The notes beneath the pieces are model-generated. The model saw only the letters and a program-made list of their open reading frames with translations, had not been told where the DNA came from and searched no databases. 64,000 nucleotides of DNA. It comes from Streptomyces canus 299MFChir4.1. Lineage in GTDB: Bacteria; Actinomycetota; Actinomycetes; Streptomycetales; Streptomycetaceae. Positions 11,061-15,665 of the stretch are shown here, one piece after another; within the stretch, counting starts at the first letter, position 1; every line of letters begins with the position of its first letter. The stretch lies in the NCBI RefSeq assembly GCF_000383615.1, contig NZ_KB911584.1:124001-188000 (forward strand). The letters are read 5' to 3'. A program made the translations under genes and the position numbers.

Positions 11061-11178
11061 CCGCTCCCTGAATACGTGCTGTCTATGGAAAAAGTCTCCG
11101 CCGAGCCTATCGCGCCGGGGACGGCGGTCCGCACCGGATTACCCCTCGCCCACACCCGAGTTACCCCATGACGATTGT

Positions 11179-11208
11179 ACGGAGTGCATACGCTTCAGTA
11201 CGCTCCGT
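11179..11208. promoter_or_regulatory. Spaced inverted repeat upstream of the STAND ATPase gene
   Basis: ACGGAG at 11179-11184 and CTCCGT at 11203-11208 form a 6-base inverted repeat with an 18-base spacer. It ends six bases before the proposed start codon at 11214, in the divergent gap with the DUF948 gene. It could be an operator. At this length a chance occurrence is also plausible. Confidence 0.3.
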
Positions 11209-11213
11209 GTTCC

Positions 11214-13376
11214 ATGCGCAGTCATCAGCCCGAGGACACCGAGGTGAACGGCAATCTGCCCCTGGAGCTCGACGGCTTCGTGGGCCGGCGCGCGGAACTC
11301 CCGGAGCTGGCACGGGCCCTGGACGCCTCGCGCCTGGTGACGGTGACGGGCCCCGGCGGTATCGGCAAGTCACGGCTCGCGGCACGGGTGGCGGGCGACC
11401 GGCGCACCCCGCCCGACGGGGTGTGGCGCGTCGAGCTGGCCTCCGTACGCGACCCGGAGTTCGTCGACTACGCCGTCGTGGAGACCCTGGGTCTGACGGA
11501 CCACACCGCGCGGCCGCCGCGCGAGACGCTGCTGGCCCATCTGGCCGGGCGTCGGCTCCTGCTGGTCCTCGACGGTTTCGAGCATCTGGTGGACGCGTGC
11601 GCGACCCTGGTCGCCGACCTGCTGGGTCAGGTGCCGGGGCTGGCGGTCCTCGCCGTGGGGCGCCGGCCGCTGCGCGTCGCCGGCGAGCAGGTCTTCGCGC
11701 TGGGCCCGCTGGGCGAGGACGAGGCCGTGGAACTGTTCGCGGAGCGGGCCGGGCGGCAGGGGGTGACGGTCGGCGCCGATCCGCACGTACGGGAGCTGTG
11801 CCGGCGCCTGGACGGCATTCCGCTGGCGATCGAGCTGGCCGCGGGCCGGCTCGGAGCCTTGTGCCCCGGGCAGTTGCTGGAGCGGCTCGACGACCGGTTC
11901 CGGCTGCTGACGGGCGGCTGCCGGGACACGCTGCCCCGCCATCGGACGCTGCGCACGGCGATCGGCTGGAGCCACGAACTGTGCACGCCCGAGGAGCGGT
12001 TGCTGTGGTCGCGGCTCTCGGTGTTCGCCGGCCAGTTCGACCTGGAGGCCGCCGAGTACGTGTGCAGCGGCGGCGGCCTGCACTGCGACGACGTCCTCGA
12101 CGTCCTGTCCGCACTGCTCGCCCAGTCGGTGGTGGCCCGCGAGGAGACCGCGACCGGCGTGCGCTACCGGATGCTCGACACGGTCCGGGCGTACGGCACC
12201 GAGTGGCTGGAGGCCACGGGCGACGCGATCCGGCTGCGCAGGCGGCACCGCGACTGGTACGTGGGCCTGGCGACCTGGTGCGAGCTGGACTGGTTCTCCC
12301 CGCGGCAGAACGAGGTGGCCGCGCGGATCGAGGCCGAGCTGCCGAACCTGCGCTGCGCTCTGGAGTACTGCCTGACCGAGCCGGACGGCGCGGAGCTGGC
12401 CCGGCATCTCGCGGGCTCCCTCTGGTTCTGCTGGGTGGGCTGCGGCCGGCTCTCGGAGGGCCGGCACTGGCTTGAGCGCAGCATCGAGCTGGAGCCGGGC
12501 CATGAGCACACCCGTCTGAAGGCCCTGTGGGTCCTCGGCTATGTGGCGATCCTCCAGGGCGACACCGTGCCGGCGCTGGCGGCGCTGGAGGAGTGCCGGA
12601 CGGAGGCGGAGCGGTCCGCGAATCCGACGGCCGTGGCGTACGCCGAGCACCGCACGGGCTGTCTGGCGCTCGTCTCGGACGACATGCCCCGCGCGGAGAG
12701 GCTGCTGCGCTCGTCGCTGGAGCGCTACCAGGAGATCGGCGAGCTCAACAGCAACGTGCTGATGGCCCAGGTCGAGCTGGCGATGGCCCGGGCCTTCCTG
12801 GGCGATCTGCCGGACGCGGTGCGGCTGTGCGAGGACGTGCGCCGGGTGTGCGAGGACCACGGCGAGCGCTGGGCGCGGTCGTACGCGCTGTACGTCCTGG
12901 CGTACGCGGCCTGGAGCGAGGGGGACCAGGCACGCGCGCGTGAGCTGCTCACCGACTGCCTGGCCTGCGCGCACGCCTTTCACGACCTGCTGGGCTCGGT
13001 GCTGTCGATCGAACTCCTGGCCCTGGTCACGGTGACCCTGGGCGACGCGGCCGAGGCCGCCGTGCTCCAGGGTGCGGCGGCCTCGCTGTGGCCGTCGGTG
13101 GGCCTGCCGCTGTTCGGCTCGGCCTACTACGACGCCCCGCACGAGCTCTGCGAGACGTTGGTTCGGGAGCGGCTGGGCGACGCGCGGTACGAGGAGTGCG
13201 CACGGCAGGGCAGGGCGCTCGGGCGGGAGGCCGCGGTGTCCCGGGCGCTGACCCGTGCCCACCCCGGCGCCGGGCTGCCGGCGCCGCGGAGCTGCGAGCG
13301 GCACACCGAGGCGACCCACGGCATGCAGCAGCCCGCCGCCTCGCCCACCCGGAAGGGCGGGGAGACGGCGGGCTGA
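11214..13376 (+). CDS. STAND-type (NB-ARC-like) ATPase with TPR-like C-terminal region
   Basis: Soluble protein of about 720 residues from the group of ATPases seen in SARP and LuxR-type (LAL) regulators. The N-terminal NTPase has the P-loop GPGGIGKSRLA near residue 45, a Walker B-like LLVLDGFEHL, and the winged-helix-like RYRMLDTVRAYG region near 315. The C-terminal half is an array of TPR-like helices. No N-terminal BTAD/OmpR domain and no C-terminal LuxR helix-turn-helix is visible, so it lacks an obvious DNA-binding domain. ATG at 11214 is my choice; TTG at 11175 or GTG at 11244 are possible. It stands alone, convergent with rpsD. Confidence 0.75.
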   Translation: MRSHQPEDTEVNGNLPLELDGFVGRRAELPELARALDASRLVTVTGPGGIGKSRLAARVAGDRRTPPDGVWRVELASVRDPEFVDYAVVETLGLTDHTARPPRETLLAHLAGRRLLLVLDGFEHLVDACATLVADLLGQVPGLAVLAVGRRPLRVAGEQVFALGPLGEDEAVELFAERAGRQGVTVGADPHVRELCRRLDGIPLAIELAAGRLGALCPGQLLERLDDRFRLLTGGCRDTLPRHRTLRTAIGWSHELCTPEERLLWSRLSVFAGQFDLEAAEYVCSGGGLHCDDVLDVLSALLAQSVVAREETATGVRYRMLDTVRAYGTEWLEATGDAIRLRRRHRDWYVGLATWCELDWFSPRQNEVAARIEAELPNLRCALEYCLTEPDGAELARHLAGSLWFCWVGCGRLSEGRHWLERSIELEPGHEHTRLKALWVLGYVAILQGDTVPALAALEECRTEAERSANPTAVAYAEHRTGCLALVSDDMPRAERLLRSSLERYQEIGELNSNVLMAQVELAMARAFLGDLPDAVRLCEDVRRVCEDHGERWARSYALYVLAYAAWSEGDQARARELLTDCLACAHAFHDLLGSVLSIELLALVTVTLGDAAEAAVLQGAAASLWPSVGLPLFGSAYYDAPHELCETLVRERLGDARYEECARQGRALGREAAVSRALTRAHPGAGLPAPRSCERHTEATHGMQQPAASPTRKGGETAG
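13332..13372. terminator. Hairpin between the convergent ATPase gene and rpsD
   Basis: CCCGCCG at 13332-13338 pairs with CGGCGGG at 13366-13372, with inner CGCCC/GGGCG pairing (13342-13346 and 13355-13359). It overlaps the end of the ATPase gene and could serve as a bidirectional terminator with the convergent rpsD. There is no U-tract, as is common in Streptomyces. Confidence 0.45.
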
Positions 13377-13406: not shown

Positions 13407-14021
13407 TCAGCGGGCGTAGTACTCGACGACGAGCTGCTCGTCGCAGATCACCGGGATCTCCTTGCGGTTCGGCTCACGGTCCAGGCGGAACGCCAGGGCC
13501 TTGAGGTTCACCTGGAGGTAGCGCGGGGTCTCGCCCTCGGGGGCGAAGCCGCCCTCACGGGCGATCGAGAAGAGGGTCTTCTCGCGGCTGCGCTCGCGGA
13601 CCATCACGACGTCGTCGGGACGGACGCGGAAGGACGGCTTGTCGACCTTCTGACCGTTGACCTCGATGTGGCCGTGGACGACCATCTGGCGGGCCTGGTA
13701 GATCGTGCGGGCGATGCCCGAACGCAGGACCAGCGCGTCGAGACGGCGCTCGAGCTCGATGACCAGGGCCTCACCGGTCTTGCCCTGGGTCTTGGCGGCA
13801 CGCTCGTAGGCGCGGACGAGCTGACGCTCGGACACGTCGTACTGCGCGCGCAGACGCTGCTTCTCGAGCAGACGGACCTTGTAGTCCGAGTTCTGCTTGC
13901 GGCCACGGCCGTGCTCACCCGGGGGGTAGGGACGGGCCTCGAAGTACTTGACGGCCTTCGGGGTCAGCGCGATGCCGAGGGCACGCGACTTCTTGACCTT
14001 GGGGCGGGGCTGGTTCGCCAC
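13407..14021 (-). CDS. rpsD: 30S ribosomal protein S4
   Basis: Primary 16S rRNA-binding protein of the small subunit. The 204-residue protein has the N-terminal segment [15 protein letters not shown], a central [13 protein letters not shown], and the S4 RNA-binding domain with [13 protein letters not shown], then a C-terminal [11 protein letters not shown] at 14021 follows a purine-rich GAGAGA. It lacks the zinc-binding cysteines of some S4 paralogues. It is monocistronic here, away from the alpha operon, as usual in Streptomyces. The 260-base structured leader upstream suggests autogenous control. Confidence 0.97.
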
Positions 14022-14288
14022 AATCTCTCATCTCTTGTGTTCGGCTTGTCAGAGTTATGGGAGGTCGCATCCGCAGCCGGGGAAACCCGCCGGGTCCTCG
14101 AAGGACCCGCTGGGCAGCCGCTCCCCTGGTCTGGGCACATACGTGCAGCACGCGAGTGGCCCACCTACCGCTGGCGGTGGTGGGCTGCCCGCGACACCAT
14201 TCGAACGGTGCGCGACGCTCCTGGAACCCCCGCTGGGGGTTCCGGCTGACCGTCCCGTTCTGACTGCACGGGACACAGCACTTCGAGG
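14022..14288 (-). promoter_or_regulatory. Structured leader of rpsD with several strong hairpins
   Basis: Between the end of rarA and the rpsD start there are four inverted repeats. They are 14092-14108 (7-bp stem, 3-nt loop), 14159-14185 (11-bp stem with one bulge), 14223-14243 (perfect 9-bp stem, 3-nt loop) and 14252-14274 (perfect 7-bp stem, 9-nt loop). A TAGAAT element on the minus strand at 14295-14290 could be a -10 box, placing the RNA start near 14283. S4 represses its own mRNA through leader structures in E. coli and B. subtilis; this leader is a candidate for the same in Streptomyces. Some hairpins might instead terminate rarA. Confidence 0.5.
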
Positions 14289-14303
14289 GATTCTACAGGG
14301 TGC

Positions 14304-15665
14304 TCAGGACCGCTTGCGACCGAGGTGCTTGCGGGTCCACTCCACCGCGTCCGCGTACCGGGCCTCGGCGCCGTGCCGGGTCGGTTCGTAGTACTCGCGG
14401 TCCTTGATGGCGTCCGGGGCGTACTGCTGCTCGGCGATCCCCTCGGACAGGTCGTGCGGGTAGACGTACCCCTGCGCGTGCCCGAGCTTGGCGGCGCCCT
14501 TGTAGTGCCCGTCGCGCAGATGCGGCGGGACCGGCCCGGCCAGCCCCTTGCGTACGTCCTCCATGGCGGCGCCGATCGCCATGGTCGCGGCGTTGGACTT
14601 CGGGGCCAGGGCGAGCGCGATGGTGGCGTGGCTCAGCGTCAGCGCGGCCTCGGGGAAGCCGATCATGGCGACGGCCTGGGCCGCGGCCACGGCTGTGGGC
14701 AGGGCGTTCGGGTCGGCGAGGCCGATGTCCTCGCTGGCGGAGATCATCAGGCGGCGGGCGATGAAGCGGGGGTCCTCGCCGGCCTCGATCATGCGGGCCA
14801 GGTAGTGCAGGGCCGCGTCGACGTCGGAGCCCCTGATGGACTTGATGAGGGCGCTGGCCACGTCGTAGTGCTGGTCGCCGTCGCGGTCGTACTTCACGGC
14901 CGCGCGGTCGACCGTCTCCTCCAGGGTGGTGAGGGAGATCTCCGGCTCGCCCTTGTCGAGGGCGGCCCCGGCGGCTGCCTCCAGGGCGGTCAGGGCGCGG
15001 CGGGCGTCGCCGCCGGCGATCCGCACGAGGTGGTCCTCGGTGTCCTCGGCAAGGGCGACGGCGTCCTTCAGACCGCGCTCGTCGCTCAGCGCCCGCTTCA
15101 GCAGTCCTCTGACCTCGTCGTCGGTGAGGGGTTCGAGGGTCAGCAGGAGGGACCGGGACAGCAGCGGGGAGATGATCGAGAAGTACGGGTTCTCGGTGGT
15201 GGCCGCGATCAGGGTCACCCAGCGGTTCTCGACCGCGGGGAGCAGGGAGTCCTGCTGGGCCTTGCTGAAGCGGTGGATCTCGTCGAGGAAGAGGACGGTC
15301 TCCTTGCCGAAGCCGCCGGTGGCGCGGCGGGCGCCCTCGATGACCGCGCGGACCTCCTTGACGCCGGCGGTGATCGCGGAGAGCTCCACAAAGCGCTTGT
15401 TCGTCGCCTTGGAGACGACGTACGCCAGGGTCGTCTTGCCGGTGCCGGGCGGGCCCCAGAGGATCACCGAGGACGGCCCGGCGGGACCGCCGCTGCCCTC
15501 GCCGACCAGCCGGCGCAGCGGCGAGCCCGGCTTGAGCAGGTGCTGCTGGCCCACGACCTCGTCGAGGGTGCGCGGGCGCATCCGGACCGCCAGGGGGCTG
15601 CCGGCCGGGTCCTTCTCCTGGCGCTCTTCCGCCGCGGCGGTGAACAGATCGGGCTCCACGTTCAA
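14304..15665 (-). CDS. rarA: Replication-associated recombination protein A (RarA/MgsA)
   Basis: AAA+ clamp-loader-like ATPase acting at stalled replication forks. In 453 residues the Walker A is GPPGTGKTT (near 71-79), Walker B is LFLDEIHRF, and sensor 1 is IAATTEN. The C-terminal tetramerisation domain holds [16 protein letters not shown]. Normal length. The start is TTG at 15665 or GTG at 15659; neither has a strong ribosome site. It follows a VKOR-like gene by 35 bases on the same strand. Confidence 0.95.

Follow-up and report, generated by a model that had tools for sequence, protein, structure and literature searches.

The gap between rarA and rpsD in Streptomyces canus 299MFChir4.1 encodes a conserved, structured RNA, the reality of which leaves hardly any room for doubt. 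This RNA lies in the window analysed here (the whole stretch of DNA, 64,000 nt) and is arranged as a leader of rpsD. Its likely role is autogenous control of rpsD by ribosomal protein S4, the putative ligand by genomic association, and it is probably a structurally new kind of leader for S4 autoregulation, confined to Streptomycetaceae. Assembly of the small subunit begins with S4, for which feedback control has been confirmed experimentally in few lineages; a large leader in the main antibiotic-producing family, unlike the S4 leaders described in the literature consulted, would be a new test case for unrelated RNAs evolving to bind one protein.

Locus, predicted promoter and architecture of the leader

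The rpsD gene (13407–14021, minus strand) encodes an S4 protein of 204 aa with Pfam matches to S4 and Ribosomal_S4; by identity of this protein, the source strain is placed close to S. pseudovenezuelae and S. canus. Upstream of it on the same strand is rarA (14304–15665), encoding an MgsA/RarA AAA ATPase with a match to Pfam MgsA_C, and the gap between the two spans 282 nt (14022–14303). On its strand, rpsD stands alone before an opposing ORF in the window, an arrangement counted in favour of S4 autoregulation. A large plus-strand ORF (11175–13376; 733 aa from a TTG start, ATPase-like by eye) is convergent to rpsD and sits between it and the next minus-strand ORF. The rpsD-sense strand of the gap folded at -138.9 kcal/mol (z -4.38) and the opposite strand had a z of -3.48, none of 200 shuffles being equally low for either strand. 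The sequence-only reading had seen four separate strong hairpins in a 282-base gap; the gap length and the strong hairpins were borne out, but the hairpins turned out to be six helical elements plus a closing helix and a pseudoknot.

From 5′ to 3′, the leader was composed of a P1 hairpin, a variable P2, a closing helix around helices a to d, which make up a five-way-junction core, and a pseudoknot strand, CUGAC (all coordinates in this and the next paragraph are on the minus strand). P1, in which GCUG..GUCCCGU pairs with ACGGGAC..CAGC, was located at 14245–14279, and its loop held the pseudoknot 5′ strand, GUCAG (14260–14264); the 3′ strand, CUGAC (14048–14052), was situated 26 nt upstream of the rpsD start codon, both strands being assigned by covariation and by RNAalifold. 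In an alignment of 76 leaders, 99.6% of the cells of the inner P1 helix and 83.6% of those of the outer helix were paired, pair 9-80 being UA in 38, CG in 29 and GU in 7 leaders; the helix variants GCUG/CAGC, GCCG/CGGC and GCCC/GGGC were observed among the genus leaders. P2 (14223–14243), in the window a perfect inverted repeat (GGAACCCCC/GGGGGUUCC, 14223–14231/14235–14243), differed in sequence and length among leaders and was left out of the 76-leader pair count.

The closing helix of the junction, assigned from the same alignment, consisted of GGAG-C-GUCGC (14212–14221) and GCGAC-CUCC (14060–14068); 99.9% of its cells were paired, and 5 of its 9 pairs were invariant while 2 showed two-sided change. 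Helix a, CACC-loop-GGUG (14195–14210), had 99.7% of cells paired and three of four pairs invariant; helix b, CGCGGG..GCCCACC/GGUGGGC..CUCGCG (14151–14193), showed two-sided change in 6 of 13 pairs; helix c, GCAC-GUAU-GUGC (14135–14146), with 96.7% of cells paired and no two-sided change, was altered in one genus (g11, L087–L089). Helix d (14074–14133) possessed an asymmetric internal loop, GCGGCUG (14115–14121) opposite UUU, and had 88.6% of cells paired, pair 254-328 being AU in 49 and GC in 24 of the 76 leaders. The 3′ strand of the closing helix (14060–14068) reads ACCUCC, similar to the anti-Shine-Dalgarno tail of 16S rRNA. Its partner in the closing helix, AGGAG, resembles a ribosome-binding site, and both strands are nearly invariant.

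The TAGAAT element that the sequence-only reading had noticed at the rarA end was found at 14290–14295 (minus strand) and is, by position and by conservation among homologous leaders, the -10 element of a predicted rpsD promoter. A -10-like hexamer of the strict pattern occupied the equivalent place in 169 of 177 homologous leaders (156 of the 164 distinct ones), upstream of P1 and TANACT/TAGAAT-like in form, and the remaining eight had TAAGAT, TACGAT or TAGCAT in its place. Since this element is conserved upstream of P1, transcription is predicted to start near 14283, upstream of every hairpin, and the leader would extend over 14022–14283 (minus strand), as judged from folding, homologues and the -10 element. 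The position is that of a ribosomal-protein leader, in the 5′ UTR with a promoter upstream, the promoter being recognised by -10 conservation alone; a generic sigma-70 scan of 13500–15200 returned no promoter, no good -35 was visible, and no 5′-end data for rpsD were found in the literature consulted. A terminator scan of 13500–15200 gave one terminator-like site, at 13873–13888 (plus strand), outside the gap; as none was called in the gap, translational control is favoured. T runs of at least five, which were counted against a translational S4 leader, were present in 12 of the 76 leaders.

Covariation and distribution

When the 76 leaders were aligned by sequence only, standard pairs were observed in 95.4% of the cells versus 37–45% when the pairing was slid, and two-sided change was seen in 21 of 56 pairs (10.9 shuffled, 5–11 slid) and in 144 cells versus 47.0. 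The central pseudoknot pairs changed on both strands, 63-359 being AU in 50 and GC in 25 of the leaders and 64-358 being CG in 50 and UA in 23. Within Streptomyces the pseudoknot was formed by GUCAG/CUGAC, CACCAG/CUGGUG or GCCUCAG/CUGAGGC, and in other genera by UCACC/GGUGA or CACCAG/CUGGUG. RNAalifold, run on 32 Streptomyces leaders, predicted the junction and the pseudoknot helix unprompted with a small covariation term (-2.16), and dropped P1 in favour of the latter helix because it cannot draw pseudoknots.

Tree-based tests were carried out on 177 leaders (164 distinct upstreams) and 49 structural pairs. On the rpsD-coding tree, 49 two-sided canonical events were counted, whereas 5000 random re-pairings averaged 1.44 and never exceeded 32, and slid pairings gave 0–3; on the leader tree, which is conservative, there were 9, compared with a mean of 0.41 and a maximum of 5 in random re-pairings and with 0–2 in slid ones. 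At E<0.05, an R-scape-like G-test with a simulated phylogenetic null singled out two pairs with the rpsD-coding tree, of which one was structural and the other not, and none with the leader tree; the test was weakened by uneven sampling (139 of the 177 rows were Streptomyces-type), and covariation was unable to test much of the leader core since the core is largely invariant. Conserved structure with covariation, as is expected of a ribosomal-protein leader, was thus found, though the G-test was non-significant for nearly all pairs. Missing covariation or hairpin conservation, which had been named in advance as evidence against the proposal, was not what emerged: structure, position and -10 element were conserved, and helices and pseudoknot covaried.

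In the 43 pairs that were at least 90% canonical, 148 GU and 22 AC cells were counted, and this excess of GU assigns the RNA to the rpsD strand. When the 90% filter was lifted, the strand test failed on the set of 177 (158 GU versus 181 AC cells), and in the 76-row alignment it gave 130 GU versus 64 AC cells. Two pairs, 402-308 (the outermost of the pseudoknot) and 120-175, held most AC cells and are therefore doubtful.

The genus sample comprised 41 genomes, 40 of them with S4, and among the 30 loci examined the leader was present in 19, in all of them directly before rpsD. A covariance model, R1, built from these 19 leaders matched 143 of 249 Streptomycetaceae genomes, spread over 5 of the 17 genera; each of these genomes had one match, and E values ranged from 7e-61 to 1.7e-13. 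S4 adjoined the motif in 40 of the 40 genus loci obtained by model searches (L031–L070), and the motif was directly before rpsD in 39 of 40 divergent loci from other genera (L073–L112), the contig ending first in L093; the S4 proteins of these 39 loci were 76–81% identical to that of the window. In a class sample of 394 genomes, R1 gave 20 genus matches plus two weak ones, L071 and L072 (E 1e-3 and 5e-3), which were set aside, there being no S4 gene nearby.

Model R2, searched over 60 order and 394 class genomes, had no strong match beyond the family, where E was 0.02 at best. In a full-filter search with R2, ten S4 loci of other families and three odd loci of the family yielded a best E of 0.03, to part of the model only. 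The R2 match in G321 (E 0.02) was set aside; the S4 match of that genome is on a different contig. A match in G044 to 43 model positions (E 0.009) was taken to be fortuitous, since more than 150 kb separated it from the S4 genes of that genome; G178 had a second model match at E 0.07. At the sensitivity used, the leader class is found in one family, Streptomycetaceae, and not credibly outside it, and weaker relatives may be missed because filters are stricter when over 40 genomes are searched at once. The order rarA followed directly by a window-like S4 gene also occurred in a genome of another family (L230, genome G288), where R2 gave no leader match.

S4 gene copy number and other rpsD upstream types

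In a family sample of 41 genomes, the 15 with a full-length leader match had one S4 gene each; a short second S4 match in five of them (29–37% identical, E >1e-4) was not counted. Among the 26 genomes without the leader, a second S4 (44–47% identical) was present in 20 and a single S4 in five, and in G061 S4 was seen as two pieces only. The association between leader and single S4 had a Fisher p of 1e-6, with relatedness ignored. Leaderless genomes keeping the second S4 include G041, G044–G047 and G049. The genus sample likewise gave one S4 match in 19 of 19 leader genomes. Of the 11 leaderless genomes (group B, below), 10 also had one S4 match; these and the five single-S4 genomes above count against S4 control by the leader. 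In the class sample, rpsK was beside S4, the alpha-operon arrangement, in all 30 examined loci, which were the strongest family matches. Thus, the rarA-linked rpsD appears to have become the sole S4 gene in leader genomes.

Group B, the 11 of 30 genus loci without the leader, had a DmdR-type iron box 41–43 nt before the start codon. Scored against the DmdR-type consensus, the box was present with at most two mismatches in 11 of 11 group B loci versus at least six mismatches in 177 of 177 leader loci, and in other loci of the family it was found in 14 of 17 leaderless versus 0 of 11 leader loci. Boxes of DmdR/IdeR type thus take the place of the leader in many Streptomyces and sister genera, 37–43 nt before rpsD (L016, L018, L019, L021–L023, L026–L030, L250, L252–L257 and L259–L265), and boxes that look similar by eye are situated before window-like S4 genes in other families (L226, L227, L231–L234). 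A divergent DUF2470 gene was supported by a Pfam match in the single group B locus tested; a DUF2470-like gene was present in 12 of the 14 iron-box family loci and also near the leader locus L268. In a tree of S4 proteins, the iron-box Streptomyces were not a single clade and leader-bearing genera other than Streptomyces grouped apart, so that gain and loss of the leader cannot be ordered.

The motif of the helix d loop, GCGGCTG in DNA, was present in 92% of the 177 leaders and in 96% of 27 upstreams of different layout, compared with 3% of 496 background windows and none of 10 S4 upstreams from other families; GCGGCTGAC was found in 96% of the 27 other-layout upstreams versus 7% of the 177 leaders. 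Common to the iron-box loci was a conserved block that contains GCGGCTG and runs in part antisense to the DUF2470 gene, and the block was also present in L251, L253, L258 and L261, where DUF2470 similarity was little or absent. In these four loci and group B, the block was situated about 90–250 nt before rpsD, with the motif GGGACGCGGCTGACC and in most cases a TACCCT/TACTCT -10-like element; where the DUF2470 gene exists, the block with GGGACGCGGCTGACC is antisense to its start. RNAalifold gave a weak structure for the group B block (-6.1 kcal/mol) with two-sided changes absent, and for this reason no structure is claimed for this type of leader.

A gapped helix d pattern, GCGGCTGNCC-N6-30-GGGTTTCCC, had single matches in G013 and G054 and two in G000, of which one is the window leader; the reversed pattern used as control had no match. 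In G054, a genome of another genus with one S4 gene and no R2 match, the sole strict-pattern match lay about 99 nt upstream of rpsD (L266) and consisted of helix d by itself, GGGTGCGGCTGGCCCGTG..CACGGGTTTCCC. These sequence matches suggest that a putative recognition hairpin, helix d, is common to window-type leaders and other upstream types. A more tentative proposal, which we hold to be doubtful, is that helix d is a portable S4-recognition module built into at least three different rpsD leaders of Streptomycetaceae, that the large form occurs where the second S4 has been lost, and that its junction may imitate the one bound by S4 in 16S rRNA. If true, the three leader types would be the five-way junction of the window, a shorter form belonging to the iron-box Streptomyces and to sister genera, and, in a single genus, a hairpin that is nearly bare; RNA would have taken over dosage control once a single S4 copy served all ribosomes.

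Possible function and relation to known S4 leaders

A model of pseudoknot-mediated control of translation can be drawn, with the case for and against it about evenly balanced. Free S4, outside ribosomes, would bind the rpsD leader, with the conserved internal loop of helix d, GCGGCUG/UUU, as its probable site; bound S4 would stabilise the leader fold including the pseudoknot, and the stabilised leader would then block or trap initiation of rpsD translation, the mode presumably being translational rather than transcriptional.

No match to the window leader was obtained in an Rfam 15 search at E<=5, and with five whole leader loci there were two matches at E<=1, both below the gathering score and neither to an S4 leader. 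The S4 target of the E. coli alpha operon, presumably Rfam RF00140, has a pseudoknot near the ribosome-binding site. The Streptomycetaceae leader differs from this target in size and architecture, and its rpsD follows rarA, outside the alpha operon. Both would be S4-controlled RNA elements, control in E. coli being by entrapment according to PMC10931766. In B. subtilis and other Firmicutes, S4 represses its own translation via the rpsD leader (PMC10931766, PMC7247131), which is likewise a structured untranslated leader of rpsD outside the alpha operon. However, the Firmicutes leader is described without a pseudoknot and with a conserved GUAA imitating rRNA, whereas the Streptomycetaceae leader has a pseudoknot and GUAA occurred in the core of just 4 of 76 leaders, so that this Firmicutes-type feature is not conserved. 

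Eckert and Weinberg 2020 (PMC7247131) reported S4 leaders in Bacteroidia, Flavobacteria, Clostridia and Fusobacteriales, with none from Actinobacteria in their Table 1; these are likewise computational candidates, each of a single lineage, and are set apart from the present leader by lineage. Autogenous control in mycobacteria, also Actinobacteria, has been described for rpsO (S15) (PMC8470358), with a different protein and RNA. The main text of a 2024 review, PMC10931766, covers S4 control in E. coli and Bacillus without Streptomyces, and the main text of PMC11109978, which gives 30 ribosomal-leader candidates in 50 genomes, one of them Streptomyces, is without rpsD, although its supplement might include the leader. 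In the literature searched, mostly short of full text, no description of a Streptomycetaceae rpsD leader was found. Local alignment of the leader with 16S rRNA revealed no sequence resemblance, shuffles scoring as high in 36 of 100 cases for Streptomyces 16S and 19 of 100 for E. coli 16S. Five-way topology alone is common to the leader and the S4 site of 16S rRNA. The new actinobacterial RNA class proposed from the sequence, a putative S4-binding leader, is partly supported: it is conserved, covaries and has no Rfam match; it is narrower in being found, at the sensitivity used, in one family, and it is built as a junction with a pseudoknot, not as independent hairpins.

A conserved mRNA structure could also answer another protein, a metabolite or a metal, or have a constitutive role in mRNA stability or translation. 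The large fold fits such a role, and the iron-box-like site before the same gene in sister lineages makes another signal conceivable; we nevertheless consider this unlikely, as strong matches were located solely before rpsD in the checked loci and the leader tracks single-copy S4, both of which are as expected of feedback by the gene product. It is improbable in a much higher degree that the RNA is an independent small RNA whose gene chances to precede rpsD: its own -10 element and compact fold would suit one, but the terminator scan gave nothing between structure and rpsD in the window, a pairing strand is just 26 nt from the start codon, and rpsD was adjacent in all strong-match loci with rpsD on the contig, across five genera.

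In S. coelicolor, binding of the transcription factor ScbR2 to DNA at the 3′ end of the rpsD leader has been reported (PMC4595836), which counts against the S4 reading; the ScbR2 site given there for sco1505, confirmed by EMSA and accompanied by a ChIP-seq peak at rpsD, matches the leader DNA of locus L047 exactly. Conservation might on these grounds stem not from RNA function but from control at the DNA level, by a promoter or an ScbR2 operator, or from a terminator of the gene upstream; this would be surprising, however, because an operator needs neither compensatory changes nor a conserved junction of about 160 nt, and the ScbR2 site spans 27 nt at one end of the leader only. Autogenous control by S4 remains the preferred reading, and a link between S4 dosage, ScbR2 and antibiotic production is possible. 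In L047, the 27-nt ScbR2 site given in that paper occupies 1685–1711, downstream of the pseudoknot 3′ strand and upstream of the start codon.
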